Source of the DNA: Bryopsis sp. KO-2023
Taxonomy: Eukaryota > Chlorophyta > Ulvophyceae > Bryopsidales > Bryopsidaceae
DNA: 64,000 nt
Assembly (NCBI GenBank): GCA_030272585.1
Contig: BSYQ01000013.1
Location: 744,001-808,000, forward strand
Reading direction: 5' to 3'
Made by a program: the position numbers and the translations under genes. This document shows, in pieces, positions 20,273 to 46,396 of the stretch (its first letter is position 1; every line of letters starts with the position of its first letter). The notes beneath the pieces were generated by a model. That model was not told the DNA's origin. It saw only the letters and a program-made list of their open reading frames with translations, and made no database searches.

Positions 20273-20460
20273 GAGTAAGCTAAGTAGCATGGACCAGTTT
20301 TTCTCAACAGAAAGCAACAACCAAGGGTATGACACCCTTTAATTTCATAAATTCATTGGAATTGCTCTGAATCCCTGCTGCCATGTCCTGTGCAGGTCTG
20401 GGGTTGGCTTGCGTGGGGGGGGGGGGGGGGGCGATCAGAAACGGTGGAAACTCTGCTGAA
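20268..20460 (+). repeat. Diverged partial copy of array sequence, left flank
   Basis: Aligns with 25438-25645 of unit 1: GGATGGAGTAAGCTAAG, the ATGGACCAG and AACAGAAAGCAACAACCAAG blocks, a G run and GGTGGAAACTCTGCT. After the G run this copy has GATCAGAAAC where the units have GTTTCTGATC, its exact reverse complement, which indicates a 10-base microinversion. The region 20461-20699 next to it has no feature I can support. Confidence 0.75.
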
Positions 20461-20721
20461 ATTGCTCTCGACCAGGGGAGGCTGCTTGTTGCTTGAAAAC
20501 TTAGCTTGATGATGACGGAGAGTCGATCAGGGAAAAGTAAGAACAAATATCTATAAGATTTAAAACAAACACAAACATGAAGCAAAAATCAAAAAGTATC
20601 GGAAAAAAAGGACAAGCGAAGACATTGATGTTTTTTTGGCGGTTCAAATTTTGTATTCCCAAGGATATGCTGGGATAGCCCAAGGGATTTGGTTTCGTAA
20701 GTTTTTCTACCAGTTTTTCAG

Positions 20722-20836
20722 GCAGCAGCAACCGCCGTTTTCAACGGAGATGCATGAAAAAGAAGTGGATGGCTCCGAGCTCTTTGTTGGGGAAGCCCAA
20801 ACGAATAGAATCCACAGAATTATTATGGCAGAATAA
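20722..20836 (+). CDS. Terminal exon of an unidentified gene, unit 1
   Basis: After the acceptor ACCAGTTTTTCAG the frame reads QQQPPFSTEMHEKEVDGSEL and FVGEAQTNRIHRIIMAE, then TAA. It is acidic then basic, with no motif I know. In units 2-4 the upstream partner would be the end of the previous unit, but in unit 1 it is unique sequence, so an upstream exon shared by all copies is unlikely. Copies: 28482-28596, 36219-36333 and 43968-44082, with one Lys codon change (AAG to AAA at 20756 and equivalents). Confidence 0.35.
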
Positions 20837-21041
20837 GGCTCCATAATGCTCCATCGTATTTGCTTGATGTGTGCATGTGGTGTGACACACTCTTGATAAT
20901 CATCTGTGTGTAAAACAAAAAAAACGGTGCAAATGGGGCAAACGATCGAGTAGGTTGTTAACAGAAAATTTATTGCAGCGTCAAAATCTGTGACTCATTG
21001 GTGTGCTGGCATTCGTTGTTGATTAACGAGATTAGATTTTC

Positions 21042-21386
21042 AGAGCTGAGGAAAGACCGACTCAATCTCGGATGGGGTGGGAAGAATCGAGTGCAAAGGA
21101 GGGAGGAGAGGCAGCCACGCTGGGTGATGATGGACTGCTATGGGAAAATTCCTCCCAAAGTTGGAGGCATCCACAACTCTGCCAGCTGGCAGCAAACGAA
21201 TGCAAGCGAGCTCCAGGGCTGCCACCCACCCGGGCTCGACCTGCCTCCAGGATGTTTGAAATGGAATGTCCAGTCAGCAATCGACATCCCGATCAGAATT
21301 TAGATTTGCCTCCAGGGTTGAATCCACCAGGCCTGAGAGCCTTGAAGAAGAACGATCAAGAACGATCCGGCATCCCCGATGTCTGA
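21042..21386 (+). CDS. Unidentified exon, acidic Gly/Ser/Pro-rich, unit 1
   Basis: Follows the acceptor AGATTTTCAG. The frame reads AEERPTQSRMGWEESSAKEG, then GEAATLGDDGLLWENSSQSW, later ARPASRMFEMECP and PPGLNPPGLRALKKNDQERS, ending GIPDV and TGA. The start of this exon is paralogous to the coiled-coil exon at 25819, which follows the same acceptor block. It overlaps the start of the next ORF out of frame. No family recognised. Copies lie at about 28802-29146, 36539-36883 and 44288-44632. Confidence 0.35.
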   Translation, partial: RAEERPTQSRMGWEESSAKEGGEAATLGDDGLLWENSSQSWRHPQLCQLAANECKRAPGLPPTRARPASRMFEMECPVSNRHPDQNLDLPPGLNPPGLRALKKNDQERSGIPDV

Positions 21387-21582
21387 CATGGCAGCCAAAG
21401 TGAAGGATCTGCTGCCAACATCCCCTACTTTGCATCCTGGTCAATTCATGGCTGCCAATGCTGAGGATACGGTGGTGCAGAGCAGCGAGTGTGAGTGTAA
21501 GGAAATTTTTTCGATTGCTGAGCAAGGAGTGGGATTCGAGCAAGGTGGCCAACTGGATCCGGTGGGGCAGAACCAAATTTAA
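21379..21582 (+). CDS. Short acidic ORF ending in a conserved coding block, unit 1
   Basis: 67 residues from ATG at 21379: MSDMAAKVKDLLPTSPTLHP, then DTVVQSSECECKEIFSIAEQ and GGQLDPVGQNQI before TAA. The 3' part recurs at 23977-24072 with an in-frame loss of eight codons and the same stop, which supports real coding at least in the past. Function unknown. Copies: 29139-29342, 36876-37079 and 44625-44828. Confidence 0.45.
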   Translation: MSDMAAKVKDLLPTSPTLHPGQFMAANAEDTVVQSSECECKEIFSIAEQGVGFEQGGQLDPVGQNQI

Positions 21583-22345
21583 TTTTTGTCGAGGTGGTGG
21601 TCAAGCCAGCTTACAGCCGGATTTACTGCTTGCCAGAAAGAACAACGGGGATGATAATGGAAACCAATGCCGATTATTGGCGTCGAAAAAAAAACATTGT
21701 GAAAAAGGGTTTTTGTTTTTTGTTTTGTTGTTGGGAGGCTTGCATGGATGGTGGCACTGTTTTTTTGGTAAAATTTGTACATTAGATTTTGTATATATTT
21801 TTGTAGATTCCTTCCAGGTGCTCGGAGATTGTGGGATGCTGGATTAAAAATCATCTTTTTCTGATTCTTAAAAAGTGTTTTAGATTTCTGTGGAGGGGGA
21901 AAAAGAAGACAAGGGAGGTTTTTCCCACATCTATACGTTTCGTGCGTCGGAAAACATTCTGCCCAAAAAGCTCCGTCGGTCTTTCCCGCTGGCGAACGAA
22001 CAAACAAACACACAAACAAACACACAAACAAACAAAAGAACGAACAAAAACTTTGGCAGCCGTCCCACCCGCTGGCTTCCCCCCTCGCCACTGTTTCTCT
22101 TTCGAGGGTCCCGCTCTCCGCCCCCCTGTTACCGTCGTCGATGATGGCCCGGCCAATCGGGGACACGGAACAAGGGTGCTTCACTGAGCTATCCTGACAA
22201 TGGTTGTTGACTGTGTCCGTATTAATCTTTTTTGCGTTTCGTTGTTTGAGACGTTTTTTTTCCAGAAACAAGTGACTGTATTTTGACTCCACTTTTTGTG
22301 GATGAGCCGCATCAGTCCGCAGAACCGTGATCCGCTCATCCACAG
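21465..22345 (+). repeat. Internal subrepeat B, copy B1 (unit 1)
   Basis: Starts at GATACGGTGGTGCAGAGC and runs through TACAGCCGGATTTACTGC, a CACACAAACAAA-type tract (about 21998-22045) and a block ending CCGCTCATCCACAGAAA. It shares its first 450 bases with B2 (from 23981) and most of its length from 21585 with B3 (from 26301). Copies lie at the same place in units 2 and 3, and unit 4 holds a B1-B2 hybrid. Confidence 0.85.
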
Positions 22346-22454
22346 AAACCCCCCCCCCCCAAAGCCGTTTTTGTTCTCGATCCAGTCGCGCTTCGTGAAT
22401 ATCGCTCTATTGTGAAGACTGCCACCGCGCGATGTCATGTGAAAGGAGCTCGTG

Positions 22455-23155
22455 ATGGAAGTCGCGAAAAAGAAGGCGGCTGCGCTCTTGATCGATCGTG
22501 GGTGAGCGTGGAGGGGTGATTCGAATGATATCGCTGTCTGCTCCTCGATTCGATAGGAAAAGAAAACAGCGCCGTGTCGGCGGTGGGAAATGGAAAAGAA
22601 TTTCTTTCGGCCAACCATCCAGCTGGCAAACGTTTGGCTGGATGGCGCCGCTTTGTTATTTCGTTTTCCCCTCGAATTGGGGGAATTTGGCGCTTTCTCT
22701 GTGGATATGTGATCATGAACGGCTGCTCTGCTTGGCCGCATGTTAGGTGCCAATCATCATTTTCGCAGGTCGCCGCCAAATGATTTTGGGCATCGGAGAC
22801 CGGGACGTAATGGCCAAGCATGATGGGCTCGTGGACGGAGGGCTTTCGGTGCTTCGACTCAGTAATCGTCCGATTGAGTGTTTTTTTCGCATTGGTATTA
22901 TTTAGCCGCTGGGGCTGCGATCGGGAACAGTCCAGACATCGTACAGGAGCCGATCAAGGCAAAATGCGGCGTGAATGCCAAAGACAGCGAAGGATGGACT
23001 CCCCTGCATTTCCCATGTGGCGGCGGGGAATCCTTGTTCATTGATGCTCTCATCGACAGTGGGGCTGATGTTGGATCGAAAACTGGGAAAGGGGCTGAGA
23101 TCGATGCTCAGGATTTGAAAGGATTTGACACTGCAATCTGCCAAGGGGGATGAAC
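22455..23155 (+). pseudogene. Ankyrin-repeat gene piece, unit 1
   Basis: The frame at 22878-23153 contains VNAKDSEGWTPLHFPCGGGE, then SLFIDALIDSGADVGSKTGK and GAEIDAQDLKGFDTA: nearly two ankyrin repeats with the usual GWTPLH, I--LI--GADV and AQD--G-TA positions. The next expected residues (LQSAKGDERLEIF) lie in the frame one base away, so the gene is frameshifted or spliced in a way I cannot see. An upstream piece ending MEVAKKKAAALLIDRG then GTGAGC (donor at 22502) looks like the end of another repeat. Ankyrin repeats bind proteins; nothing shows the partner. Copies: 30638-30913 and 38376-38651 for the core; absent from unit 4. Confidence 0.6.
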
Positions 23156-23159
23156 GTTT

Positions 23160-23970
23160 GGAAATCTTTTGTGGATGGCGACATACAAAAGAAATTCATC
23201 CCAGCTTTCCAGAAAGATACTGCTGTCTTGGTGAGTCCGGAGTCTTACCATACATTCAAAGGATGTTTGGGAGGTATGGGATCAGGAGGGGAAAAAGGAG
23301 GCTGTTGGTTGGGTCTTTTCCATGAACGATTTCTGCTGGTGCTGTCAGAAGGGAGATCATCGATACATGTGGCAATGTACGCATGAATTGCTTACCAGGA
23401 ATCCTGTATCAACCTCAGCAAAAAAAAAACGAAAACGAAAACAAATAAAAAATCGAAATCCAGTCTTGATCTCAGATGGATTGAACAGCCGTCCGTCGGG
23501 AATGCCCCCTCAAAAAATTAAGAATTGAAATTGGAGACTTATGTATTGGATAGAAATGAAGTTTTATAGTTATCTATTGGAAGTGAAAGAAAAACAAGTT
23601 TTTTGCAGAGGAACGACATAATGTTTGCTGTGGTTTACTGATGAAATATCTGTGCGTAGTCGTACTGCCCATCGAACTTTTGGGGGAGTTGTTGCATTTT
23701 TCTCCTGCTGGTGCCAAATTCTCGCCATCCCTTTTTGGAAAGACGCATCTGTTTTTTTTTTCTTTTTTTACGTTCCATGGCATTTGGTTATGTTTTTTTG
23801 TGCGGGTCATCTGGCTATGCTCAGGGAAGCATTAGTGCTTGATTACGCAGCAGATGTACTGTGATGAATTTCTTGATATACCGCTCATAATAACGTGTCG
23901 GGGACATGCAATTCCAGCATTCATTCATTTTTTTTTTCCTACTTTTTTCCAGTGATGTTGTTTTTCTGAG
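23160..23970 (+). other. Interval after the ankyrin piece, unit 1
   Basis: A good donor (CTTGGTGAGT, 23229-23238) is followed by short frames without motif, including a Cys-rich NDFCWCCQKGDHRYMWQC near 23325. A piece reading GHLAMLREALVLDYAADVL near 23804-23863 could be a last, decayed ankyrin repeat. No complete exon chain can be drawn. Confidence 0.35.
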
Positions 23971-23976
23971 TTGCAG

Positions 23977-24072
23977 GGTGATACGGTGGTGCAGAGCAGC
24001 GAGTGTGAGTGTAAGGAGATTTTTTCGATTGCTGGTGGCCAACTGGATCCGGTGGGGCAGAACCAAATTTAA
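23977..24072 (+). CDS. Terminal exon paralogous to the acidic ORF, unit 1
   Basis: After a T-rich tract and GAGTTGCAG the frame reads GDTVVQSSECECKEIFSIAG then GQLDPVGQNQI and TAA. Compared with 21459-21582 it lacks exactly 24 bases, keeping the frame and stop. Copies: 31738-31833 and 39476-39571. No copy in unit 4, where the region is deleted. Confidence 0.45.
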   Translation, partial: GDTVVQSSECECKEIFSIAGGQLDPVGQNQI

Positions 24073-24474
24073 TTTTTGTCGGTAGGTGGTGGTCAAGCCA
24101 GCTTGCAGCCGGATTTACTGCTTGCCAGAAAGAACAACGGGGATGATAATGGAAACCAATGCCGATTATTGGCGTCGAAAAAAAAGCATTGTGAAAAAGG
24201 TTTTTGTTTTTTGTTTGTTGTTGGGAGGCTTGTATGGATGGTGGCACTGTTTTTTTGGTAGAATTTGTACATTAGGTTTTGTAGATTCCTTCCAGGTGCT
24301 TGAAGATTGTGGGATGCTGGATTAAAAATCCGTTGTTGCTGCTGGATTAAAAATTCGTTGCTCATCTATATTCTCCCTGATTCTGACTGAAACGAGGGCT
24401 ATTAAAAAGTGTTTTAGATTTTTGTAGATAGGGGGAAAAAGAAGACAGGGAGGGAAGTTTGTTTTTTCCCACAT
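23981..24474 (+). repeat. Internal subrepeat B, copy B2 (unit 1)
   Basis: Shares with B1 the coding block, TACAGCCGG-like start, the GGGGATGATAATGGAAACCA block and the GGGGGAAAAAGAAGACA block, then diverges at CCCACATC. It contains a small internal duplication of GCTGGATTAAAAAT (24316-24330 and 24341-24355). Confidence 0.8.
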
Positions 24475-24843
24475 CGGGAGTCTTAATTCACTCCCCTGCC
24501 TCCTCAACTCTGAACTGTTGCTGCTTTACCCAGTGAACAAATTCATATGAATTCAATTTTGCCTCTTCACAGTCTCATCAGGATTGGGATAAGAAAAGGT
24601 TTCTCCCAGGACCAAAACAACCCTGAGTCAGACCAAACAAACAACAATGAAAAGAGACGCAAGGTTTGAAGAACCTTGGAAGCAGCAGTCCCAACGTTGT
24701 TGGTTAAACAAGACTTGAAGAATTCCAATGGCCGCGGACCGGTGGTGAGGACTGGAGGGGACCGGCCAGGGTGAAAGCACAGAGTGCGCTCAAATACTCC
24801 AAGCTCCGGAGGCTTTCCAAACATCGAATCCCGACGCAACACA

Positions 24844-25452
24844 ATGAACACCATGTGGTTGTTGCTCTCCGTCGTCGGAGCCTTGGCCGCGTGCCACTCT
24901 GTTCACCCTACTGGTGCGCTGAGGAACATTGCTCTGGCTGTTCAGCACTGCGGATCGGGTTGACGGCTTAACGTTTTACGCTTTCTTCTGCAGACACCTC
25001 GACGATGCTGCAACTTGGTCCCCAGTGATCGTTGCTTGACCCGACCGGGTCTCCCTTGTAAGTTCAGTCGTATGTTTGGTGTATGGGTCTTGCCAGGAAG
25101 TTGGAATTCCTGTTTCTGCTGTGCTGTTCTGTCGATCTTGTTGTTTACTTCCAACTCATCTGGGGGAGGTGGTGGGTCCAGGGGGGGCGACGGCGGCGGC
25201 GGCGGCGGAGGAGGAGGAGGCCGTTCCAATGGTGGTGGCCATAATATCTTCCCCAAGCGGTGGCTTCTATGAGGGTGGCGTCAGTGGTTCTTACCTCCCA
25301 AGTGGGAGAGGATCTCCATTGTACGAAAAGGCATGCGAATGTGGGTGGGTGGGTGGGTGGGGGCTCTGATGAGCGACAGAAATGTCGCAAGGGACGAATT
25401 CGATCTGGGTTTTCTAAAGGAAATGAAAATCTGCAAGGATGGAGTAAGCTAA
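24844..25452 (+). CDS. Secreted S1 protease-like ORF set, unit 1 (probably degenerate)
   Basis: ATG at 24844 starts a signal peptide: MNTMWLLLSVVGALAACHSV. After at least one intron (acceptor TTCTGCAG at about 25004) a Cys-rich piece ends at a strong donor CTTGTAAGT (25049). Further on, one frame reads VVGPGGATAAAAAEEEEAVP, then MVVAIISSPSGGFYEGGVSG, which fits the mature start of an S1 protease (IVGG----------P--V-I------CGG), but the GGC/GAG tract has expanded into Ala and Glu and the cysteine is lost. An exon at 25369-25443 (MSDRNVARDEFDLGFLKEM) may hold the catalytic-Asp region and ends at a GTAAGC donor shared with the remnant near 20268. No His exon or GDSGGP exon is visible in the unit. 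Copies: 32597-33205, 40335-40943 and 45563-46175. Confidence 0.4.
25166..25225 (+). repeat. GGT/GGC/GGA trinucleotide tract, unit 1
   Basis: Runs of GGT, GGC and GGA codon-like triplets encode poly-Gly, poly-Ala/Glu or poly-Arg-Pro depending on frame and strand. It is present in all four units with minor differences (AGGGGTGGCGA in unit 4, AGGGGGGGCGA in units 1-3). Confidence 0.8.
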
Positions 25453-25818
25453 GCAGCATGGACCAGTTTTTTCTCAACAGAAAGCAACAACCAAGGGTAT
25501 GACACCACATAAATTTCATAAATTCATTGGAATTGCTCTGAATCCCTGCTGCCATGTCCTGTGCAAGTCTCACACCGCAGGGGTTGGCTTGCGTGGGGGG
25601 GGGGGGGGGGGGGCCCCCGTTTCTGATCGGTGGAAACTCTGCTTGATGAGTGAATAGAATGGATGGTGTCACACACTCTTGATAATCATCTGTGTGCAAA
25701 TGGGGCGATCGATCGAATAGGTCGTTTAACAGAAAATTTATTGCAGCGTCAAAATCTGTGGCTCATTGGTGTGCTGCCATTCGTTGTTAATTAACGTGGT
25801 TCATGTGTAGATTTTCAG

Positions 25819-26083
25819 AGCTGAGGAAACAACAAGTGGAGACGCATCCAGGGATTGGAGCGTGTATGTGAAAGACCTACAGAAGCTTGTTCGAGAACAA
25901 GCTTCGGAAAGATCAGCTCTGCAAAAGGTACCTTTTTTTGGTGTGTCAAAAAACTATTCACCTTCTTTTTTTGATTTAATCCATTATTATTCACTTGAGT
26001 TTGTTGGACTGGCAGAAATTTCCCAGCCAGTCCAAGTGGCGGATGTTATGGAGCCATTGTTGAAATCAATGGCTGAAGGATAA
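25819..26083 (+). CDS. Coiled-coil C-terminal exon pair, unit 1
   Basis: Exon 25819-25927 (acceptor ATTTTCAG) reads AEETTSGDASRDWSVYVKDL then QKLVREQASERSALQK. A GGTACC donor and the acceptor TTTCCCAG (26021-26026) join it in phase 0 to 26027-26083, PVQVADVMEPLLKSMAEG and TAA. The part is helical and charged. Upstream exons were not identified. Copies: 33567-33831 and 41305-41569. Confidence 0.5.
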
Positions 26084-26300
26084 TATCTTAATTGCACAGC
26101 TGTGTACAACTTTCAAAAACCAAATGACTGATATTCAAAGTGAGATAGATTTTCATGGATCAAACGCAAGAAACATGGAATGTAATATGATTTCCCGTTC
26201 CCAACCAACAGGTGATGGTGAATGAATTCGGGCAAAGCTGCGGTTTTGGATGTGTGTGTGTGTGTTTTTCAAGATGTCCAGGCTGGAGCCCAACTTTAAT

Positions 26301-27165
26301 TTAATTTTTGTCAAGGTGGTGGTCAAGCCAGCTTACAGCCGGATTTACTGCTTGCCAGAAAGAACAACGGGGATGATAATGGAAACCAATGCCGATTGTT
26401 GGCGTCGAAAAAAAAGCATTGTGAAAAAGGTTTTTGCTTTTTGTTTTTTGTTGGGAGGCTTGCATGGATGGTGGCACTGTTTTTTTGGTAAAATTTGTAC
26501 ATTAGATTTTGTATATATTTTTGTAGATTCCTTCCAGGTGCTTGGAGATTGTGGGATGCTGGATTAAAATTCGTTGTTGCTGAACGATGAGGGGCTCATC
26601 TTTTTGTGATTCTTAAAAAAGTGTTTTAGATTTCTGTGGAGGGGGAAAAAGAAGACAAGGGAGGTTTTTCCCACATCTATACGTTTCGTGCGTCGGAAAA
26701 CATTCTGCCCAAAGAGCTCCGTCGGGTCTCAGCGACTGCCTCTTATGAAAAAGCCGAGGCAAGTGGATAGGTTTGCTACCAAGCACCAAACGTAACAAAC
26801 AAACAACACCGGTCTTTCCCGAACAAACACACAAACAAACACACAAAAGAACGAACGAACGAACAAAAACTTTGGCAGCCGTCCCACCCGCTGGCTTCCC
26901 CCCTCGCCACTGTTTCTCTTTCGAGGGTCCCGCTCTCCGCCCCCCTGTTACCGTCGTCGATGATGGCCCGGCCAATCGGGGACACGGAACAAGGGTGCTT
27001 CACTGAGCTATCCTGACAATGGTAGTTGACTGTGTCCGTATTAATCTTTTTTGCGTTTCGTTGTTTGAGACGTTTTTTTTCCAGAAACAAGTGACTGTAT
27101 TTTGACTCCACTTTTTGTGGATGAGCCACATCAGTCCGCAGAACCGTGATCCGCTCATCCACAGA
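26301..27165 (+). repeat. Internal subrepeat B, copy B3 (unit 1)
   Basis: Aligns with 21580-22345 (B1), without the coding block at its start. It has an extra stretch of about 80 bases (about 26727-26815) between GCTCCGTCGG and the CACACAAACAAA tract, and lacks the C run that ends B1. Copies lie at the same place in units 2 and 3. Confidence 0.85.
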
Positions 27166-27232
27166 AAACACAAGCCGTTCGAATCAACGACACGAATCCG
27201 CCGACAAAACGATATACTCTGGGGACGTCGGC

Positions 27233-27671
27233 ATGCTTCGGGCAGCCGCGCTGCAGTTCGATGGCATTACCTTGTTCAAAAACAAGGTGGCAGCTTTTAC
27301 TTTTTGAACTTGAGTATTGGGAGGGATTATTTCTGGGTTTTTTTTTTTCCCCTGGTTTACAGCCACTTGGATTGAAAAAGTCAAGAGAAGTCGATTTCCT
27401 GGAGAAACTGCGGTCGGCTGTTGGTCGAATTCATCCAGAATTTAAAAAGAAGGGATGCAAGTGTTGGATTGGGCCAGTATTGAGGTGACGATTGGTGTCT
27501 TTTTTTGTCTTCTCATTTTCTGTTGTTTTTCTTCTTGTGTGGATTTCGTGGATTTCGTGGATTTCGTGGAGATGTTGTTTGTATGTTTACAGCACCATAA
27601 AGAAAAGAGAGTCCAGATATACAATGGATGCAATATCTGATTTGTATATGCAACGGGCCTGCAACATCTAC
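27233..27671 (+). CDS. Small basic protein gene, three or more exons, unit 1
   Basis: Exons 27233-27286, 27363-27484 and 27593-27671 join in phase and read MLRAAALQFDGITLFKNK, then PLGLKKSREVDFLEKLRSAV, GRIHPEFKKKGCKCWIGPVL and STIKKRESRYTMDAISDLYM. A further exon starts at 27751 after AAAACACAG and stays open in two frames (one contains RKQPWWEDYRGRAAQDECL). Later acceptors near 28028 and 28203 may lead to a short last exon ending RRM and TAG at 28228. The protein is basic with a Cys pair. I do not recognise it; the IHPEF spacing only vaguely recalls histone H2B. Copies start at 34981 and 42719; unit 4 lacks it. Confidence 0.5.
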
Positions 27672-28459
27672 GTCTTTCTTTTTAATTTTGGTGCCATGTT
27701 TTTTTCCTTCCCGGATATGTTTAATAATTATGATGATGTTAAAAACACAGGAGCGATCTGTTGGCCATCAAAACAGACGTGAAATTGGCCGAAGCTTATC
27801 GACCGAGAAAGCAACCTTGGTGGGAGGACTACAGAGGCAGAGCTGCCCAAGACGAATGCTTGAACAGACTTCCCAGAAGGTTCGAGGCTATACAGCTTGC
27901 CAGAAGGTTGGACCGAACCTATAGATTTGATTCTGACAAAAAAAAAAAAAAAAAAAATGGGATGTGAAAATGGTTGTGATATGAGAAAATGTGGTGTTTG
28001 TTTTATATTTTTTTTCCTGGTTTTATAGAGGGGGGCTGGTGGAAGTCGAAGGAAGCCGGTGCTGGCGATGAGGCTCCAGGTATGGATCCAGATCCATTTT
28101 TTTTTTTTTTTTTTCAACCTTCTGAACATATGTGTATATGGAAGTTTCACGGTTGCGCTTTTGAAATTATCAAGCAGTCGGGTTTTCTTTTTGCCTGCTC
28201 CAAGATGTTCACGATTCGGCGCATGTAGCTTTCGTCGAGAGTTGCATTGGAGTGGGTCTGTCAGACCCACCTCTTTTTCCTATTAGTGCTTCTCCCTTTA
28301 ATTCTTCATTTTTCATATTATCCCCCCCCCCCCAAGAAATAAAAAACAACAAGAATAAGTATTATTAACAATAAACCAAGGTGTACCTGAAGATTCAGCC
28401 GATCCCTCAACATGCATGCAGATTCATGTAGTGATTTTTCGACACATAGGTGTTGAAAG

Positions 28460-31400
28460 AGTTTTTCTACCAGTTTTTCAGGCAGCAGCAACCGCCGTTT
28501 TCAACGGAGATGCATGAAAAAAAAGTGGATGGCTCCGAGCTCTTTGTTGGGGAAGCCCAAACGAATAGAATCCACAGAATTATTATGGCAGAATAAGGCT
28601 CCATAATGCTCCATCGTATTTGCTTGATGTGTGCATGTGGTGTGACACACTCTTGATAATCATCTGTGTGTAAAACAAAAAAAACGGTGCAAATGGGGCA
28701 AACGATCGAATAGGTTGTTAACAGAAAATTTATTGCAGCGTCAAAATCTGTGACTCATTGGTGTGCTGGCATTCGTTGTTGATTAACGAGATTAGATTTT
28801 CAGAGCTGAGGAAAGACCGACTCAATCTCGGATGGGGTGGGAAGAATCGAGTGCAAAGGAGGGAGGAGAGGCAGCCACGCTGGGTGATGATGGACTGCTA
28901 TGGGAAAATTCCTCCCAAAGTTGGAGGCATCCACAACTCTGCCAGCTGGCAGCAAACGAATGCAAGCGAGCTCCAGGGCTGCCACCCACCCGGGCTCGAC
29001 CTGCCTCCAGGATGTTTGAAATGGAATGTCCAGTCAGCAATCGACATCCCGATCAGAATTTAGATTTGCCTCCAGGGTTGAATCCACCAGGCCTGAGAGC
29101 CTTGAAGAAGAACGATCAAGAACGATCCGGCATCCCCGATGTCTGACATGGCAGCCAAAGTGAAGGATCTGCTGCCAACATCCCCTACTTTGCATCCTGG
29201 TCAATTCATGGCTGCCAATGCTGAGGATACGGTGGTGCAGAGCAGCGAGTGTGAGTGTAAGGAAATTTTTTCGATTGCTGAGCAAGGAGTGGGATTCGAG
29301 CAAGGTGGCCAACTGGATCCGGTGGGGCAGAACCAAATTTAATTTTTGTCGAGGTGGTGGTCAAGCCAGCTTACAGCCGGATTTACTGCTTGCCAGAAAG
29401 AACAACGGGGATGATAATGGAAACCAATGCCGATTATTGGCGTCGAAAAAAAAACATTGTGAAAAAGGGTTTTTGTTTTTTGTTTTGTTGTTGGGAGGCT
29501 TGCATGGATGGTGGCACTGTTTTTTTGGTAAAATTTGTACATTAGATTTTGTATATATTTTTGTAGATTCCTTCCAGGTGCTCGGAGATTGTGGGATGCT
29601 GGATTAAAAATCATCTTTTTCTGATTCTTAAAAAGTGTTTTAGATTTCTGTGGAGGGGGAAAAAGAAGACAAGGGAGGTTTTTCCCACATCTATACGTTT
29701 CGTGCGTCGGAAAACATTCTGCCCAAAAAGCTCCGTCGGTCTTTCCCGCTGGCGAACGAACAAACAAACACACAAACAAACACACAAACAAACAAAAGAA
29801 CGAACAAAAACTTTGGCAGCCGTCCCACCCGCTGGCTTCCCCCCTCGCCACTGTTTCTCTTTCGAGGGTCCCGCTCTCCGCCCCCCTGTTACCGTCGTCG
29901 ATGATGGCCCGGCCAATCGGGGACACGGAACAAGGGTGCTTCACTGAGCTATCCTGACAATGGTTGTTGACTGTGTCCGTATTAATCTTTTTTGCGTTTC
30001 GTTGTTTGAGACGTTTTTTTTCCAGAAACAAGTGACTGTATTTTGACTCCACTTTTTGTGGATGAGCCGCATCAGTCCGCAGAACCGTGATCCGCTCATC
30101 CACAGAAACCCCCCCCCCCCAAAGCCGTTTTTGTTCTCGATCCAGTCGCGCTTCGTGAATATCGCTCTATTGTGAAGACTGCCACCGCGCGATGTCATGT
30201 GAAAGGAGCTCGTGATGGAAGTCGCGAAAAAGAAGGCGGCTGCGCTCTTGATCGATCGTGGGTGAGCGTGGAGGGGTGATTCGAATGATATCGCTGTCTG
30301 CTCCTCGATTCGATAGGAAAAGAAAACAGCGCCGTGTCGGCGGTGGGAAATGGAAAAGAATTTCTTTCGGCCAACCATCCAGCTGGCAAACGTTTGGCTG
30401 GATGGCGCCGCTTTGTTATTTCGTTTTCCCCTCGAATTGGGGGAATTTGGCGCTTTCTCTGTGGATATGTGATCATGAACGGCTGCTCTGCTTGGCCGCA
30501 TGTTAGGTGCCAATCATCATTTTCGCAGGTCGCCGCCAAATGATTTTGGGCATCGGAGACCGGGACGTAATGGCCAAGCATGATGGGCTCGTGGACGGAG
30601 GGCTTTCGGTGCTTCGACTCAGTAATCGTCCGATTGAGTGTTTTTTTCGCATTGGTATTATTTAGCCGCTGGGGCTGCGATCGGGAACAGTCCAGACATC
30701 GTACAGGAGCCGATCAAGGCAAAATGCGGCGTGAATGCCAAAGACAGCGAAGGATGGACTCCCCTGCATTTCCCATGTGGCGGCGGGGAATCCTTGTTCA
30801 TTGATGCTCTCATCGACAGTGGGGCTGATGTTGGATCGAAAACTGGGAAAGGGGCTGAGATCGATGCTCAGGATTTGAAAGGATTTGACACTGCAATCTG
30901 CCAAGGGGGATGAACGTTTGGAAATCTTTTGTGGATGGCGACATACAAAAGAAATTCATCCCAGCTTTCCAGAAAGATACTGCTGTCTTGGTGAGTCCGG
31001 AGTCTTACCATACATTCAAAGGATGTTTGGGAGGTATGGGATCAGGAGGGGAAAAAGGAGGCTGTTGGTTGGGTCTTTTCCATGAACGATTTCTGCTGGT
31101 GCTGTCAGAAGGGAGATCATCGATACATGTGGCAATGTACGCATGAATTGCTTACCAGGAATCCTGTATCAACCTCAGCAAAAAAAAAACGAAAACGAAA
31201 ACAAATAAAAAATCGAAATCCAGTCTTGATCTCAGATGGATTGAACAGCCGTCCGTCGGGAATGCCCCCTCAAAAAATTAAGAATTGAAATTGGAGACTT
31301 ATGTATTGGATAGAAATGAAGTTTTATAGTTATCTATTGGAAGTGAAAGAAAAACAAGTTTTTTGCAGAGGAACGACATAATGTTTGCTGTGGTTTACTG

Positions 31401-34400: not shown

Positions 34401-36197
34401 AGACAAGGGAGGTTTTTCCCACATCTATACGTTTCGTGCGTCGGAAAACATTCTGCCCAAAGAGCTCCGTCGGGTCTCAGCGACTGCCTCTTATGAAAAA
34501 GCCGAGGCAAGTGGATAGGTTTGCTACCAAGCACCAAACGTAACAAACAAACAACACCGGTCTTTCCCGAACAAACACACAAACAAACACACAAAAGAAC
34601 GAACGAACGAACAAAAACTTTGGCAGCCGTCCCACCCGCTGGCTTCCCCCCTCGCCACTGTTTCTCTTTCGAGGGTCCCGCTCTCCGCCCCCCTGTTACC
34701 GTCGTCGATGATGGCCCGGCCAATCGGGGACACGGAACAAGGGTGCTTCACTGAGCTATCCTGACAATGGTAGTTGACTGTGTCCGTATTAATCTTTTTT
34801 GCGTTTCGTTGTTTGAGACGTTTTTTTTCCAGAAACAAGTGACTGTATTTTGACTCCACTTTTTGTGGATGAGCCACATCAGTCCGCAGAACCGTGATCC
34901 GCTCATCCACAGAAAACACAAGCCGTTCGAATCAACGACACGAATCCGCCGACAAAACGATATACTCTGGGGACGTCGGCATGCTTCGGGCAGCCGCGCT
35001 GCAGTTCGATGGCATTACCTTGTTCAAAAACAAGGTGGCAGCTTTTACTTTTTGAACTTGAGTATTGGGAGGGATTATTTCTGGGTTTTTTTTTTTTTCC
35101 CTGGTTTACAGCCACTTGGATTGAAAAAGTCAAGAGAAGTCGATTTCCTGGAGAAACTGCGGTCGGCTGTTGGTCGAATTCATCCAGAATTTAAAAAGAA
35201 GGGATGCAAGTGTTGGATTGGGCCAGTATTGAGGTGACGATTGGTGTCTTTTTTTGTCTTCTCATTTTCTGTTGTTTTTCTTCTTGTGTGGATTTCGTGG
35301 ATTTCGTGGATTTCGTGGAGATGTTGTTTGTATGTTTACAGCACCATAAAGAAAAGAGAGTCCAGATATACAATGGATGCAATATCTGATTTGTATATGC
35401 AACGGGCCTGCAACATCTACGTCTTTCTTTTTAATTTTGGTGCCATGTTTTTTTCCTTCCCGGATATGTTTAATAATTATGATGATGTTAAAAACACAGG
35501 AGCGATCTGTTGGCCATCAAAACAGACGTGAAATTGGCCGAAGCTTATCGACCGAGAAAGCAACCTTGGTGGGAGGACTACAGAGGCAGAGCTGCCCAAG
35601 ACGAATGCTTGAACAGACTTCCCAGAAGGTTCGAGGCTATACAGCTTGCCAGAAGGTTGGACCGAACCTATAGATTTGATTCTGACAAAAAAAAAAAAAA
35701 AAAAATGGGATGTGAAAATGGTTGTGATATGAGAAAATGTGGTGTTTGTTTTATATTTTTTTTCCTGGTTTTATAGAGGGGGGCTGGTGGAAGTCGAAGG
35801 AAGCCGGTGCTGGCGATGAGGCTCCAGGTATGGATCCAGATCCATTTTTTTTTTTTTTTTTCAACCTTCTGAACATATGTGTATATGGAAGTTTCACGGT
35901 TGCGCTTTTGAAATTATCAAGCAGTCGGGTTTTCTTTTTGCCTGCTCCAAGATGTTCACGATTCGGCGCATGTAGCTTTCGTCGAGAGTTGCATTGGAGT
36001 GGGTCTGTCAGACCCACCTCTTTTTCCTATTAGTGCTTCTCCCTTTAATTCTTCATTTTTCATATTATCCCCCCCCCCCCAAGAAATAAAAAACAACAAG
36101 AATAAGTATTATTAACAATAAACCTGAAGATTCAGCCGATCCCTCAACATGCATGCAGATTCATGTAGTGATTTTTCGACACATAGGTGTTGAAAGA
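28460..36197 (+). repeat. Array unit 2 (7738 bp)
   Basis: Second full unit. By eye it is almost identical to unit 1 up to about 32390 and to unit 3 throughout. It lacks a 10-base stretch (ACCAAGGTGT in units 1 and 3) near 36122. It repeats all gene pieces of unit 1 at an offset of 7760 in the first half and about 7748 in the second half. Confidence 0.95.
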
Positions 36198-39100
36198 GTT
36201 TTTCTACCAGTTTTTCAGGCAGCAGCAACCGCCGTTTTCAACGGAGATGCATGAAAAAAAAGTGGATGGCTCCGAGCTCTTTGTTGGGGAAGCCCAAACG
36301 AATAGAATCCACAGAATTATTATGGCAGAATAAGGCTCCATAATGCTCCATCGTATTTGCTTGATGTGTGCATGTGGTGTGACACACTCTTGATAATCAT
36401 CTGTGTGTAAAACAAAAAAAACGGTGCAAATGGGGCAAACGATCGAATAGGTTGTTAACAGAAAATTTATTGCAGCGTCAAAATCTGTGACTCATTGGTG
36501 TGCTGGCATTCGTTGTTGATTAACGAGATTAGATTTTCAGAGCTGAGGAAAGACCGACTCAATCTCGGATGGGGTGGGAAGAATCGAGTGCAAAGGAGGG
36601 AGGAGAGGCAGCCACGCTGGGTGATGATGGACTGCTATGGGAAAATTCCTCCCAAAGTTGGAGGCATCCACAACTCTGCCAGCTGGCAGCAAACGAATGC
36701 AAGCGAGCTCCAGGGCTGCCACCCACCCGGGCTCGACCTGCCTCCAGGATGTTTGAAATGGAATGTCCAGTCAGCAATCGACATCCCGATCAGAATTTAG
36801 ATTTGCCTCCAGGGTTGAATCCACCAGGCCTGAGAGCCTTGAAGAAGAACGATCAAGAACGATCCGGCATCCCCGATGTCTGACATGGCAGCCAAAGTGA
36901 AGGATCTGCTGCCAACATCCCCTACTTTGCATCCTGGTCAATTCATGGCTGCCAATGCTGAGGATACGGTGGTGCAGAGCAGCGAGTGTGAGTGTAAGGA
37001 AATTTTTTCGATTGCTGAGCAAGGAGTGGGATTCGAGCAAGGTGGCCAACTGGATCCGGTGGGGCAGAACCAAATTTAATTTTTGTCGAGGTGGTGGTCA
37101 AGCCAGCTTACAGCCGGATTTACTGCTTGCCAGAAAGAACAACGGGGATGATAATGGAAACCAATGCCGATTATTGGCGTCGAAAAAAAAACATTGTGAA
37201 AAAGGGTTTTTGTTTTTTGTTTTGTTGTTGGGAGGCTTGCATGGATGGTGGCACTGTTTTTTTGGTAAAATTTGTACATTAGATTTTGTATATATTTTTG
37301 TAGATTCCTTCCAGGTGCTCGGAGATTGTGGGATGCTGGATTAAAAATCATCTTTTTCTGATTCTTAAAAAGTGTTTTAGATTTCTGTGGAGGGGGAAAA
37401 AGAAGACAAGGGAGGTTTTTCCCACATCTATACGTTTCGTGCGTCGGAAAACATTCTGCCCAAAAAGCTCCGTCGGTCTTTCCCGCTGGCGAACGAACAA
37501 ACAAACACACAAACAAACACACAAACAAACAAAAGAACGAACAAAAACTTTGGCAGCCGTCCCACCCGCTGGCTTCCCCCCTCGCCACTGTTTCTCTTTC
37601 GAGGGTCCCGCTCTCCGCCCCCCTGTTACCGTCGTCGATGATGGCCCGGCCAATCGGGGACACGGAACAAGGGTGCTTCACTGAGCTATCCTGACAATGG
37701 TTGTTGACTGTGTCCGTATTAATCTTTTTTGCGTTTCGTTGTTTGAGACGTTTTTTTTCCAGAAACAAGTGACTGTATTTTGACTCCACTTTTTGTGGAT
37801 GAGCCGCATCAGTCCGCAGAACCGTGATCCGCTCATCCACAGAAACCCCCCCCCCCCCAAAGCCGTTTTTGTTCTCGATCCAGTCGCGCTTCGTGAATAT
37901 CGCTCTATTGTGAAGACTGCCACCGCGCGATGTCATGTGAAAGGAGCTCGTGATGGAAGTCGCGAAAAAGAAGGCGGCTGCGCTCTTGATCGATCGTGGG
38001 TGAGCGTGGAGGGGTGATTCGAATGATATCGCTGTCTGCTCCTCGATTCGATAGGAAAAGAAAACAGCGCCGTGTCGGCGGTGGGAAATGGAAAAGAATT
38101 TCTTTCGGCCAACCATCCAGCTGGCAAACGTTTGGCTGGATGGCGCCGCTTTGTTATTTCGTTTTCCCCTCGAATTGGGGGAATTTGGCGCTTTCTCTGT
38201 GGATATGTGATCATGAACGGCTGCTCTGCTTGGCCGCATGTTAGGTGCCAATCATCATTTTCGCAGGTCGCCGCCAAATGATTTTGGGCATCGGAGACCG
38301 GGACGTAATGGCCAAGCATGATGGGCTCGTGGACGGAGGGCTTTCGGTGCTTCGACTCAGTAATCGTCCGATTGAGTGTTTTTTTCGCATTGGTATTATT
38401 TAGCCGCTGGGGCTGCGATCGGGAACAGTCCAGACATCGTACAGGAGCCGATCAAGGCAAAATGCGGCGTGAATGCCAAAGACAGCGAAGGATGGACTCC
38501 CCTGCATTTCCCATGTGGCGGCGGGGAATCCTTGTTCATTGATGCTCTCATCGACAGTGGGGCTGATGTTGGATCGAAAACTGGGAAAGGGGCTGAGATC
38601 GATGCTCAGGATTTGAAAGGATTTGACACTGCAATCTGCCAAGGGGGATGAACGTTTGGAAATCTTTTGTGGATGGCGACATACAAAAGAAATTCATCCC
38701 AGCTTTCCAGAAAGATACTGCTGCCTTGGTGAGTCCGGAGTCTTACCATACATTCAAAGGATGTTTGGGAGGTATGGGATCAGGAGGGGAAAAAGGAGGC
38801 TGTCGGTTGGGTCTTTTCCATGAACGATTTCTGCTGGTGCTGTCAGAAGGGAGATCATCGATACATGTGGCAATGTACGCATGAATTGCTTACCAGGAAT
38901 CCTGTATCAACCTCAGCAAAAAAAAAACGAAAACGAAAACAAATAAAAAATCGAAATCCAGTCTTGATCTCAGATGGATTGAACAGCCGTCCGTCGGGAA
39001 TGCCCCCTCAAAAAATTAAGAATTGAAATTGGAGACTTATGTATTGGATAGAAATGAAGTTTTATAGTTATCTATTGGAAGTGAAAGAAAAACAAGTTTT

Positions 39101-42100
39101 TTGCAGAGGAACGACATAATGTTTGCTGTGGTTTACTGATGAAATATCTGTGCGTAGTCGTACTGCCCATCGAACTTTTGGGGGAGTTGTTGCATTTTTC
39201 TCCTGCTGGTGCCAAATTCTCGCCATCCCTTTTTGGAAAGACGCATCTGTTTTTTTTTTCTTTTTTTACGTTCCATGGCATTTGGTTATGTTTTTTTGTG
39301 CGGGTCATCTGGCTATGCTCAGGGAAGCATTAGTGCTTGATTACGCAGCAGATGTACTGTGATGAATTTCTTGATATACCGCTCATAATAACGTGTCGGG
39401 GACATGCAATTCCAGCATTCATTCATTTTTTTTTTTCCTACTTTTTTCCAGTGATGTTGTTTTTCTGAGTTGCAGGGTGATACGGTGGTGCAGAGCAGCG
39501 AGTGTGAGTGTAAGGAGATTTTTTCGATTGCTGGTGGCCAACTGGATCCGGTGGGGCAGAACCAAATTTAATTTTTGTCGGTAGGTGGTGGTCAAGCCAG
39601 CTTGCAGCCGGATTTACTGCTTGCCAGAAAGAACAACGGGGATGATAATGGAAACCAATGCCGATTATTGGCGTCGAAAAAAAAGCATTGTGAAAAAGGT
39701 TTTTGTTTTTTGTTTGTTGTTGGGAGGCTTGTATGGATGGTGGCACTGTTTTTTTGGTAGAATTTGTACATTAGGTTTTGTAGATTCCTTCCAGGTGCTT
39801 GAAGATTGTGGGATGCTGGATTAAAAATCCGTTGTTGCTGCTGGATTAAAAATTCGTTGCTCATCTATATTCTCCCTGATTCTGACTGAAACGAGGGCTA
39901 TTAAAAAGTGTTTTAGATTTTTGTAGATAGGGGGAAAAAGAAGACAGGGAGGGAAGTTTGTTTTTTCCCACATCGGGAGTCTTAATTCACTCCCCTGCCT
40001 CCTCAACTCTGAACTGTTGCTGCTTTACCCAGTGAACAAATTCATATGAATTCAATTTTGCCTCTTCACAGTCTCATCAGGATTGGGATAAGAAAAGGTT
40101 TCTCCCAGGACCAAAACAACCCTGAGTCAGACCAAACCCACAGATAATTAGGGGCCTGGAAAAACCTTGGAAGCAGCAGTCCCAACGTTGTTGGTTAAAC
40201 AAGACTTGAAGAATTCCAATGGCCGCGGACCGGTGGTGAGGACTGGAGGGGACCGGCCAGGGTGAAAGCACAGAGTGCGCTCAAATACTCCAAGCTCCGG
40301 AGGCTTTCCAAACATCGAATCCCGACGCAACACAATGAACACCATGTGGTTGTTGCTCTCCGTCGTCGGAGCCTTGGCCGCGTGCCACTCTGTTCACCCT
40401 ACTGGTGCGCTGAGGAACATTGCTCTGGCTGTTCAGCACTGCGGATCGGGTTGACGGCTTAACGTTTTACGCTTTCTTCTGCAGACACCTCGACGATGCT
40501 GCAACTTGGTCCCCAGTGATCGTTGCTTGACCCGACCGGGTCTCCCTTGTAAGTTCAGTCGTATGTTTGGTGTATGGGTCTTGCCAGGAAGTTGGAATTC
40601 CTGTTTCTGCTGTGCTGTTCTGTCGATCTTGTTGTTTACTTCCAACTCATCTGGGGGAGGTGGTGGGTCCAGGGGGGGCGACGGCGGCGGCGGCGGCGGA
40701 GGAGGAGGAGGCCGTTCCAATGGTGGTGGCCATAATATCTTCCCCAAGCGGTGGCTTCTATGAGGGTGGCGTCAGTGGTTCTTACCTCCCAAGTGGGAGA
40801 GGATCTCCATTGTACGAAAAGGCATGCGAATGTGGGTGGGTGGGTGGGTGGGGGCTCTGATGAGCGACAGAAATGTCGCAAGGGACGAATTCGATCTGGG
40901 TTTTCTAAAGGAAATGAAAATCTGCAAGGATGGAGTAAGCTAAGCAGCATGGACCAGTTTTTTCTCAACAGAAAGCAACAACCAAGGGTATGACACCACA
41001 TAAATTTCATAAATTCATTGGAATTGCTCTGAATCCCTGCTGCCATGTCCTGTGCAAGTCTCACACCGCAGGGGTTGGCTTGCGTGGGGGGGGGGGGGGG
41101 GGGCGTTTCTGATCGGTGGAAACTCTGCTTGATGAGTGAATAGAATGGATGGTGTCACACACTCTTGATAATCATCTGTGTGCAAATGGGGCGATCGATC
41201 GAATAGGTCGTTTAACAGAAAATTTATTGCAGCGTCAAAATCTGTGGCTCATTGGTGTGCTGCCATTCGTTGTTAATTAACGTGGTTCATGTGTAGATTT
41301 TCAGAGCTGAGGAAACAACAAGTGGAGACGCATCCAGGGATTGGAGCGTGTATGTGAAAGACCTACAGAAGCTTGTTCGAGAACAAGCTTCGGAAAGATC
41401 AGCTCTGCAAAAGGTACCTTTTTTTGGTGTGTCAAAAAACTATTCACCTTCTTTTTTTGATTTAATCCATTATTATTCACTTGAGTTTGTTGGACTGGCA
41501 GAAATTTCCCAGCCAGTCCAAGTGGCGGATGTTATGGAGCCATTGTTGAAATCAATGGCTGAAGGATAATATCTTAATTGCACAGCTGTGTACAACTTTC
41601 AAAAACCAAATGACTGATATTCAAAGTGAGATAGATTTTCATGGATCAAACGCAAGAAACATGGAATGTAATATGATTTCCCGTTCCCAACCAACAGGTG
41701 ATGGTGAATGAATTCGGGCAAAGCTGCGGTTTTGGATGTGTGTGTGTGTGTTTTTCAAGATGTCCAGGCTGGAGCCCAACTTTAATTTAATTTTTGTCAA
41801 GGTGGTGGTCAAGCCAGCTTACAGCCGGATTTACTGCTTGCCAGAAAGAACAACGGGGATGATAATGGAAACCAATGCCGATTGTTGGCGTCGAAAAAAA
41901 AGCATTGTGAAAAAGGTTTTTGCTTTTTGTTTTTTGTTGGGAGGCTTGCATGGATGGTGGCACTGTTTTTTTGGTAAAATTTGTACATTAGATTTTGTAT
42001 ATATTTTTGTAGATTCCTTCCAGGTGCTTGGAGATTGTGGGATGCTGGATTAAAATTCGTTGTTGCTGAACGATGAGGGGCTCATCTTTTTGTGATTCTT

Positions 42101-43946
42101 AAAAAAGTGTTTTAGATTTCTGTGGAGGGGGAAAAAGAAGACAAGGGAGGTTTTTCCCACATCTATACGTTTCGTGCGTCGGAAAACATTCTGCCCAAAG
42201 AGCTCCGTCGGGTCTCAGCGACTGCCTCTTATGAAAAAGCCGAGGCAAGTGGATAGGTTTGCTACCAAGCACCAAACGTAACAAACAAACAACACCGGTC
42301 TTTCCCGAACAAACACACAAACAAACACACAAAAGAACGAACGAACGAACAAAAACTTTGGCAGCCGTCCCACCCGCTGGCTTCCCCCCTCGCCACTGTT
42401 TCTCTTTCGAGGGTCCCGCTCTCCGCCCCCCTGTTACCGTCGTCGATGATGGCCCGGCCAATCGGGGACACGGAACAAGGGTGCTTCACTGAGCTATCCT
42501 GACAATGGTAGTTGACTGTGTCCGTATTAATCTTTTTTGCGTTTCGTTGTTTGAGACGTTTTTTTTCCAGAAACAAGTGACTGTATTTTGACTCCACTTT
42601 TTGTGGATGAGCCACATCAGTCCGCAGAACCGTGATCCGCTCATCCACAGAAAACACAAGCCGTTCGAATCAACGACACGAATCCGCCGACAAAACGATA
42701 TACTCTGGGGACGTCGGCATGCTTCGGGCAGCCGCGCTGCAGTTCGATGGCATTACCTTGTTCAAAAACAAGGTGGCAGCTTTTACTTTTTGAACTTGAG
42801 TATTGGGAGGGATTATTTCTGGGTTTTTTTTTTTCCCTGGTTTACAGCCACTTGGATTGAAAAAGTCAAGAGAAGTCGATTTCCTGGAGAAACTGCGGTC
42901 GGCTGTTGGTCGAATTCATCCAGAATTTAAAAAGAAGGGATGCAAGTGTTGGATTGGGCCAGTATTGAGGTGACGATTGGTGTCTTTTTTTGTCTTCTCA
43001 TTTTCTGTTGTTTTTCTTCTTGTGTGGATTTCGTGGATTTCGTGGATTTCGTGGAGATGTTGTTTGTATGTTTACAGCACCATAAAGAAAAGAGAGTCCA
43101 GATATACAATGGATGCAATATCTGATTTGTATATGCAACGGGCCTGCAACATCTACGTCTTTCTTTTTAATTTTGGTGCCATGTTTTTTTCCTTCCCGGA
43201 TATGTTTAATAATTATGATGATGTTAAAAACACAGGAGCGATCTGTTGGCCATCAAAACAGACGTGAAATTGGCCGAAGCTTATCGACCGAGAAAGCAAC
43301 CTTGGTGGGAGGACTACAGAGGCAGAGCTGCCCAAGACGAATGCTTGAACAGACTTCCCAGAAGGTTCGAGGCTATACAGCTTGCCAGAAGGTTGGACCG
43401 AACCTATAGATTTGATTCTGACAAAAAAAAAAAAAAAAAAATGGGATGTGAAAATGGTTGTGATATGAGAAAATGTGGTGTTTGTTTTATATTTTTTTTC
43501 CTGGTTTTATAGAGGGGGGCTGGTGGAAGTCGAAGGAAGCCGGTGCTGGCGATGAGGCTCCAGGTATGGATCCAGATCCATTTTTTTTTTTTTTTTTCAA
43601 CCTTCTGAACATATGTGTATATGGAAGTTTCACGGTTGCGCTTTTGAAATTATCAAGCAGTCGGGTTTTCTTTTTGCCTGCTCCAAGATGTTCACGATTC
43701 GGCGCATGTAGCTTTCGTCGAGAGTTGCATTGGAGTGGGTCTGTCAGACCCACCTCTTTTTCCTATTAGTGCTTCTCCCTTTAATTCTTCATTTTTCATA
43801 TTATCCCCCCCCCCCCCCAAAGAAATAAAAAACAACAAGAATAAGTATTATTAACAATAAACCAAGGTGTACCTGAAGATTCAGCCGATCCCTCAACATG
43901 CATGCAGATTCATGTAGTGATTTTTCGACACATAGGTGTTGAAAGA
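36198..43946 (+). repeat. Array unit 3 (7749 bp)
   Basis: Third full unit, again almost identical to units 1 and 2. Private differences include CTGCTGCCTTGG near 38722 (CTGTCTTGG in the others) and CTGTCGGTTGG near 38800 (CTGTTGGTTGG). The C tract near 37847-37858 is one or two bases longer, which opens a longer minus-strand frame that I take to be meaningless. Confidence 0.95.
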
Positions 43947-46396
43947 GTTTTTCTACCAGTTTTTCAGGCAGCAGCAACCGCCGTTTTCAACGGAGATGCA
44001 TGAAAAAGAAGTGGATGGCTCCGAGCTCTTTGTTGGGGAAGCCCAAACGAATAGAATCCACAGAATTATTATGGCAGAATAAGGCTCCATAATGCTCCAT
44101 CGTATTTGCTTGATGTGTGCATGTGGTATGACACACTCTTGATAATCATCTGTGTGTAAAATAAAAAAAACGGTGCAAATGGGGCAAACGATCGAATAGG
44201 TTGTTAACAGAAAATTTATTGCAGCGTCAAAATCTGTGACTCATTGGTGTGCTGGCATTCGTTGTTGATTAACGAGATTAGATTTTCAGAGCTGAGGAGA
44301 GACCGACTCAATCTCGGATGGGGTGGGAGGAATCGAGTGCAAAGGAGGGAGGAGAGGCAGCCACGCTGGGTGATGATGGACTGCTATGGGAAAATTCCTC
44401 CCAAAGTTGGAAGCATCCACAACTCTGCCAGCTGGCAGCAAACGAATGCAAGCGAGCTCCAGGGCTGCCACCCACCCGGGCTCGACCTGCCTCCAGGATG
44501 TTTGAAATGGAATGTCCAGTCAGCAATCGACATCCCGATCAGAATTTACATTTGCCTCCAGGGTTGAATCCACCAGGCCTGAGAGCCTTGAAGAAGAACG
44601 ATCAAGAACGATCCGGCATCCCCGATGTCTGACATGGCAGCCAAAGTGAAGGATCTGCTGCCAACATCCCCTACTTTGCATCCTGGTCAATTCATGGCTG
44701 CCAATGCTGAGGATACGGTGGTGCAGAGCAGCGAGTGTGAGTGTAAGGAAATTTTTTCGATTGCTGAGCAAGGAGTGGGATTCGAGCAAGGTGGCCAACT
44801 GGATCCGGTGGGGCAGAACCAAATTTAATTTTTGTCAAGCTGGTGGTCAAGCCAGCTTACAGCCGGATTTACTGCTTGCCAGAAAGAACAACGGGGATGA
44901 TAATGGAAACCAATGCCGATTGTTGGCGTCGAAAAAAAAGCATTGTGAAAAAGGTTTTTTTTTTTTGTTGTTGTTGGGAGGCTTGCATGGATGGTGGCAC
45001 TGTTTTTTTGGTAAAATTTGTACATTAGATTTTGTAGATTCCTTCCAGGTGCTTGAAGATTGTGGGATGCTGGATTAAAAATTCGTTGCTCATCTATATT
45101 CTCCCCGATTCTGGCTGAAACGAGGGCTATTAAAAAGTGTTTTAGATTTTTGTAGATAGGGGGAAAAAGAAGACAGGGAGGGAAGTTTGTTTTTTCCCAC
45201 ATCGGGAGTCTTAATTCACTCCCTGCCTCCTCAACTCTGAACTGTTGCTGCTTTACCCAGTGAACAAATTCATATGAATTCAATTTTGCCTCTTCACAGT
45301 CTCATCAGGATTGGGATAAGAAAAGGTTTCTCCCAGGACCAAAACAACCCTGAGTCAGACCAAACCCACAGATAATTAGGGGCCTGGAAAAACCTTGGAA
45401 GCAGCAGTCCCAACGTTGTTGGTTAAACAAGACTTGAAGAATTCCAATGGCCGCGGACCGGTGGTGAGGACTGGAGGGGACCGGCCAGGGTGAAAGCACA
45501 GAGTGCGCTCAAATACTCCAAGCTCCGGAGGCTTTCCAAACATCGAATCCCGACGCAACACAATGAACACCATGTGGTTGTTGCTCTCCGTCGTCGGAGC
45601 CTTGGCCGCGTGCCACTCTGTTCACCCTACTGGTGCGCTGAGGAACATTGCTCTGGCTGTTCAGCACTGCGGATCGGGTTGACGGCTTAACGTTTTACGC
45701 TTTCTTCTGCAGACACCTCGACGATGCTGCAACTTGGTCCCCAGTGATCGTTGCTTGACCCGACCGGGTCTCCCTTGTAAGTTCAGTCGTATGTTTGGTG
45801 TATGGGTCTTGCCAGGAAGTTGGAATTCCTGTTTCTGCTGTGCTGTTCTGTCGATCTTGTTGTTTACTTCCAACTCATCTGGGGGAGGTGGTGGGTCCAG
45901 GGGTGGCGACGGCGGCGGCGGCGGCGGAGGAGGAGGAGGCCGTTCCAATGGTGGTGGCCATAATATCTTCCCCAAGCGGTGGCTTCTATGAGGGTGGCGT
46001 CAGTGGTTCTTACCTCCCAAGTGGGAGAGGATCTCCATTGTACGAAAAGGCATGCGAATGTGGGTGGGTGGGTGGTTGGGTGGGTGCTCTGATGAGCGAC
46101 AGAAATGTCGCAAGGGACGAATTCGATCTGGGTTTTCTAAAGGAAATGAAAATCTGCAAGGATGGAGTAAGCTAAGCAGCATGGACCAGTTTTTTTCTCA
46201 ACAGAAAGCAACAACCAAGGGTATGACACCACATAAATTTCATAAATTCATTGGAATTGCTCTGAATCCCTGCTGCCATGTCCTGTGCAAGTCTCACACC
46301 GCAGGGGTTGGCTTGCGTGGGGGGGGGGGGGGCGTTTCTGATCGGTGGAAACTCTGCTTGATGAGTGAATAGAATGGATGGTGTCACACACTCTTG
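43947..46396 (+). repeat. Array unit 4, diverged, internally deleted and truncated
   Basis: It starts like the other units but carries more substitutions (for example GGGAGGAATCG for GGGAAGAATCG near 44330, and TACATTTGCC for TAGATTTGCC near 44547). At about 44830-45070 it passes from the first internal subrepeat straight into sequence that follows the second subrepeat elsewhere, so about 2.5 kb including the ankyrin region is absent. It ends at 46396 in CACACACTCTTGA, where full units continue TAATCATCTG. Confidence 0.92.

Follow-up and report, generated by a model that had tools for sequence, protein, structure and literature searches.

Segmental duplications (low-copy repeats) with unprocessed pseudogenes, satellite DNA under concerted evolution, and Helitron or Pack-type elements with captured gene fragments are all known kinds of sequence. 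We compared with each of them an array of long units found in Bryopsis sp. KO-2023, within a window of 64,000 nucleotides (the whole stretch of DNA analysed, C13:744001-808000, from a genome of 91.09 Mb in 28 contigs). The array resembles a low-copy repeat in its long, near-identical head-to-tail and inverted copies, its broken genes and its intron sequence, but unlike a segmental duplication with unprocessed pseudogenes, its unit joins pieces of at least three unrelated genes and does not represent one locus. It is tandem and homogenised with a diverged edge unit, like satellite DNA under concerted evolution, although its unit is long and the window holds no more than three full copies. Several joined host-gene fragments, dispersed copies and a genome rich in Helitron_like_N frames recall Helitron or Pack-type elements; however, Rep or transposase was not found in the unit, and one copy carries flanking DNA. 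We consider it very probable that the array arose recently by segmental duplication, tandem as well as inverted, of non-coding debris from pseudogenes, with exchange keeping its units alike. It offers a layered example of the passage from broken gene pieces to a tandem repeat, with divergence of ~5-32%, by block, for the source genes, mostly 2-15% for the dispersed copies and ~0.03-0.2% for the array units.

Self-comparison of the window, for which rows of at least 150 bp were used from 87 in all, gave one 16.67-kb match, 99.5% identical, at an offset of 7760 bp. Chance falls far short of explaining matches of 8-16 kb at >99% identity. As assembled, three units fill window 20700-43945, near-identical and head-to-tail as in a tandem segmental duplication, and no N occurs in the whole window. 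The array is laid out as follows.

20267-20699, plus strand: left edge of the family, running on into unit 1 and occurring in dispersed copies (sequence matches)
20700-28459, plus strand: tandem unit 1, 7760 bp (self-BLAST and unit alignment)
28460-36196, plus strand: tandem unit 2, 7737 bp (self-BLAST and unit alignment)
36197-43945, plus strand: tandem unit 3, 7749 bp (self-BLAST and unit alignment)
43946-46397, plus strand: unit 4, partial and diverged, without the ankyrin block (self-BLAST)
28440-28480, no strand: tandem joint 28459/28460, unit end to unit start (unit alignment)

Alignment of the units revealed 14 substitutions in 7735 aligned bases and 8 indel events between units 1 and 2, 16 in 7744 with 9 indel events between units 1 and 3, and 2 in 7735 with 4 indel events between units 2 and 3, giving 0.26-2.07 substitutions per kb among the three full units. 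Eleven of the 14 substitutions between units 1 and 2 fall inside a single 33-bp cluster. The preliminary description had proposed a recent tandem amplification of a ~7.75-kb unit in three near-identical full copies, either young or homogenised, and the long match at the 7760-bp offset, the few substitutions per unit and the 11-substitution cluster common to units 2, 3 and 4 all agree with it. The extent that it gave, 20700-46396, stands at the right, where units run to 46397, but family homology begins further left, at ~20267. An MFS transporter gene lies left of the array, at window 18024-19619, and the flank downstream of it recurs at C7:737-738 kb and C13:1.497-1.498 Mb.

Searches with unit DNA detected further copies, on the opposite strand, at C13:488-584 kb, ~180 kb from the array. 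Two of them are long: compared with window 23502-30688, A1 differed at 12 of 7165 bases and A2 at 11 of 6851, while comparison with the next unit's stretch gave 22 of 7147 and 21 of 6842, respectively; A1 and A2 differed from each other at 7 of 6845 bases. Since the inverted clusters flank ~180 kb, inversion polymorphism there is directly predicted. One inverted unit copy is interrupted by a Ty3/gypsy-type retrotransposon (C13:530069-538301), the only LTR element whose position within a unit copy was demonstrated, which has 570-bp LTRs that are 100% alike, a GGAAC target duplication, and matches to gag, protease, reverse transcriptase, RNase H, integrase and a chromodomain. A second unit break in the inverted cluster, with TGCCC on either side, marks another insertion. 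Near but outside the unit, the element at C13:514750-523895 has 650-bp LTRs of 100% identity and matched nothing in Pfam in any of six frames, and LTR elements with LTRs 99.8% alike were also observed at C13:493266-502294 and C13:502294-510079.

The following pieces were recognised in unit 1 and the adjoining left edge.

20545-21979, plus strand: S1, decayed copy of the 3' part of a poly(A)-binding-protein (PABP) gene (match to C4)
22003-22348, no strand: spacer block with a 3' hairpin, second copy at 26822-27167 (self-comparison)
22430-23977, plus strand: decayed ankyrin-gene region with deletions and filler (match to C13:1.974-1.976 and 1.962-1.965 Mb)
23980-24458, plus strand: S2, decayed PABP copy (match to C4)
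24591-25220, plus strand: first exon and intron start of a secreted-protein gene family on C14, remainder missing (C14 matches)
24639-24671, no strand: cluster of 11 substitutions in 33 bp (unit alignment)
25642-26760, plus strand: S3, decayed PABP copy whose homology extends beyond the exon (match to C4)
27294-28455, no strand: segment ~80-84% identical to C5:2511749-2513118 (sequence match)

Judged by these matches, the unit is a mosaic. Its pieces are decayed and unprocessed, derive from three or more unrelated genes and do not amount to a gene set. S1, S2 and S3 all match the same PABP-like gene (C4:4136-4139 kb), in which RRM_1 exons were recognised and the scan of a 393-aa frame gave an MLLE match of 27.5 bits against a cut-off of 27. 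Relative to this gene, ~735 bp, half an RRM included, are deleted from S1, where the stretch matching part of an RRM exon sits in an open frame of 113 aa; the RRM stretch of S3 holds one stop. A search with the RRM exon matched 29 places, and all 94 residues in an open frame were found at the C4 place alone; several others, 32-52% identical and likewise in open frames, appear to be additional PABP or RRM genes. An MLLE search of the genome matched 15 places, none of them in either C13 cluster. Positions 25694-26285 align to C4:4137003-4137637, ~327 bp past the open exon frame, and the frame together with the split RRM suggests that the stretch beyond is intron. The PABP piece appears to have retained introns and not to be a cDNA copy; a processed pseudogene was rejected, since the homology runs past the exon.

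The ankyrin region shows Ank_2 homology at 22914-23078 (E 0.0027; 18.7 bits, cut-off 27.3), and the 332-aa source frame matches Ank_2 with an E of 4.7e-64. Its block order is swapped with respect to both C13:1.974-1.976 Mb and C13:1.962-1.965 Mb, and the block differs from the source by 8 nonsynonymous and 2 synonymous changes (ratio ~1.2). After the source gene, three more frames with ankyrin-like repeats were recognised by eye at C13:1975922-1977999. The signal peptide of the C14-type piece was likewise assigned by eye. The C6:4.41-Mb copy lacks segment 27294-28455 at the place where 27261 adjoins 20357, and no Pfam match was obtained in the one frame scanned of C5:2511.7-2513.1 kb.

Six-frame Pfam analysis of the unit 1 region (20200-28460) detected no domain above cut-off and only two sub-cut-off ankyrin matches. 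Codon changes were tested against six relatives, in windows that were free of stops in the unit, had >60 aligned codons and showed 8 or more differences; over the ankyrin part (22360-23960) this test had no relatives. No strong constraint emerged across the 144 window-frame tests. The best p was 0.0014, uncorrected, and the lowest values (0.0014-0.0021) cluster at 27190-27400 on the minus strand, which could be a weak coding trace. The longest ATG frame in units 1 and 2 is 186 aa, a length reached by 30 of 200 simulated sequences (longest simulated frame, 291 aa). In unit 3 it is 387 aa, on the minus strand; this frame exceeds all 200 simulations, depends on a 1-bp change, lacks a counterpart in units 1 and 2, and matched nothing in Pfam. 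It counts against a loss of coding capacity, which is otherwise indicated by the Pfam scan, the MLLE and RRM-exon searches, the codon tests and the ankyrin block. The intact frames and purifying selection of a functional tandem gene array were not found in the unit. A coding reading was set aside on the Pfam, MLLE, codon-change and ankyrin comparisons; as far as sequence tells, there is no working gene in the unit, and its relatives with open frames lie elsewhere. Gene prediction programs may report spurious PABP, ankyrin or secreted-protein genes in this region.

Known RNA genes and tRNAs were also searched for, with no Rfam match and no tRNA found. The spacer block at 22003-22348 is 96-98% alike in six relatives compared and 72-76% in two others. 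Compared with shuffled sequences, the fold of its plus strand is somewhat better (z -1.95, 5/200), whereas that of its minus strand is not (42/200), and a non-coding RNA role for this block is possible.

The joint between units is identical at all three unit boundaries, and two inverted copies also run through it. Judged against the ancestor-like copies at C13:1.559 Mb and C13:1.096 Mb and the left edge, the two ancestral ends share 2 bp of microhomology (AG), as end-joining would leave. In the 33-bp cluster, unit 1 carries the type of the C14 genes, and units 2, 3 and 4 carry another type, which was found neither in unit 1 nor in A1 and A2, the inverted copies; by this comparison the type of units 2-4 is the derived one. 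The spread of the cluster and the diverged edge unit fit exchange between units. We infer the following order of events. End-joining or template switching at the AG joint would have made the first tandem copy, and unequal crossing over may then have added more units and, along with gene conversion, would maintain their likeness. The second cluster could have been set up by inversion or inverted copying, and LTR retrotransposons probably entered it later. No protein product of the unit, or selection on it, would be required.

Unit 4, at the edge, is the most diverged unit in the self-comparison. It is without the equivalent of ~21853-24033 and shows 14 mismatches to 20700-21851. Its part 44790-46397 differs from 31795-33430 by 12 mismatches and from 24034-25682 by 20. 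Its S1-S2 layout was also found in the copy at C13:1.094-1.095 Mb. Over 834 bases, 3 changes were confined to unit 1, 4 to unit 4 and 5 to the outgroup, and over 259 bases the counts were 3, 3 and 5. A fresh deletion by S1/S2 recombination is less likely because the C13:1.094-1.095 Mb layout is alike and because of this split of changes.

The preliminary description had left open whether genes were being amplified under selection or whether the array was an unequal-crossover product. The latter fits. That functional genes were amplified, for dosage or diversification, would accord with the high identity of the units, with their ankyrin, PABP-like and secreted-protein homology, and with the 387-aa frame of unit 3; however, the domains are below cut-off, the frames are broken, no clear codon constraint was seen and open relatives lie elsewhere, which makes this reading highly improbable. 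The gene parts named in that description proved to be decayed fragments: its ankyrin repeats are real and weak, its conserved terminal exons are most likely a decayed PABP C-terminal exon, and its signal-peptide ORF is most likely the first exon of the C14 family. An assembly that expanded a single or double copy could account for the near identity of units 2 and 3. We regard this as very unlikely: variants specific to single units are present, the edge unit has diverged, and the inverted copies have variants of their own. The assembler is also unlikely to have copied one stretch, because the unit variants are distinct, no N is present and the inverted copies are separate.

As a further explanation, the mosaic may represent a present or former non-autonomous mobile element of Helitron-like or Pack-type kind, one that carries gene fragments and became tandem at a later stage. 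Besides the joining of pieces from at least three unrelated genes, this would explain why parts of the mosaic occur at at least about 18 further places on 9 contigs (matches grouped by the author, places with the C14-type piece only left out). The old deletion joint at 21056/21059 is crossed by an unbroken match in three of six relatives. Four copies start at one shared boundary, whose first 20 bases have exactly 4 genome matches at up to 2 mismatches, and just outside it the flanks differ in the two copies compared; this favours a fixed end. On the other hand, a consistent right end was not found in the six relatives, and neither a Rep nor a helicase gene, as an autonomous Helitron would carry, was found in 20200-28460 by six-frame Pfam analysis. 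The copy at C13:1.497-1.498 Mb also holds the left flank of the array, which favours segmental duplication for that copy; C7:737473-738122 matches the left flank alone, up to 20269. The genome contains 34 Helitron_like_N matches, 25 of them in open frames of at least 1386 aa, but a search of the genome with the hairpin 25-mer, allowing 3 mismatches, gave 19 matches that all lie in mosaic copies and none at Helitron_like_N places. A Helitron would share its termini with an autonomous element, have a 3' hairpin and end motif, and insert between A and T without target duplication; the 25-mer search gave no support for such shared ends, and a Helitron-like carrier might have dispersed parts of the mosaic. 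Taken together, we hold a mobile-element origin to be unlikely, and somewhat more doubtful is the proposal that the mosaic represents a new non-autonomous family that picks up host-gene fragments, has a fixed left end and becomes tandem in retrotransposon-rich DNA.

Helitron_like_N matches were also seen grouped at two places in the genome. At C11:3347-3474 kb there are 11, with 4 on the plus strand followed by 7 on the minus strand, 9.3-22.6 kb apart, and at C4:279-302 kb there are three, ~11-12 kb apart; the open frames at both places are 1440-1816 aa long, and these may be tandem arrays of Helitrons. Within the window itself, a ligand-gated ion channel (Lig_chan) domain lies on the minus strand at 57502-58344.
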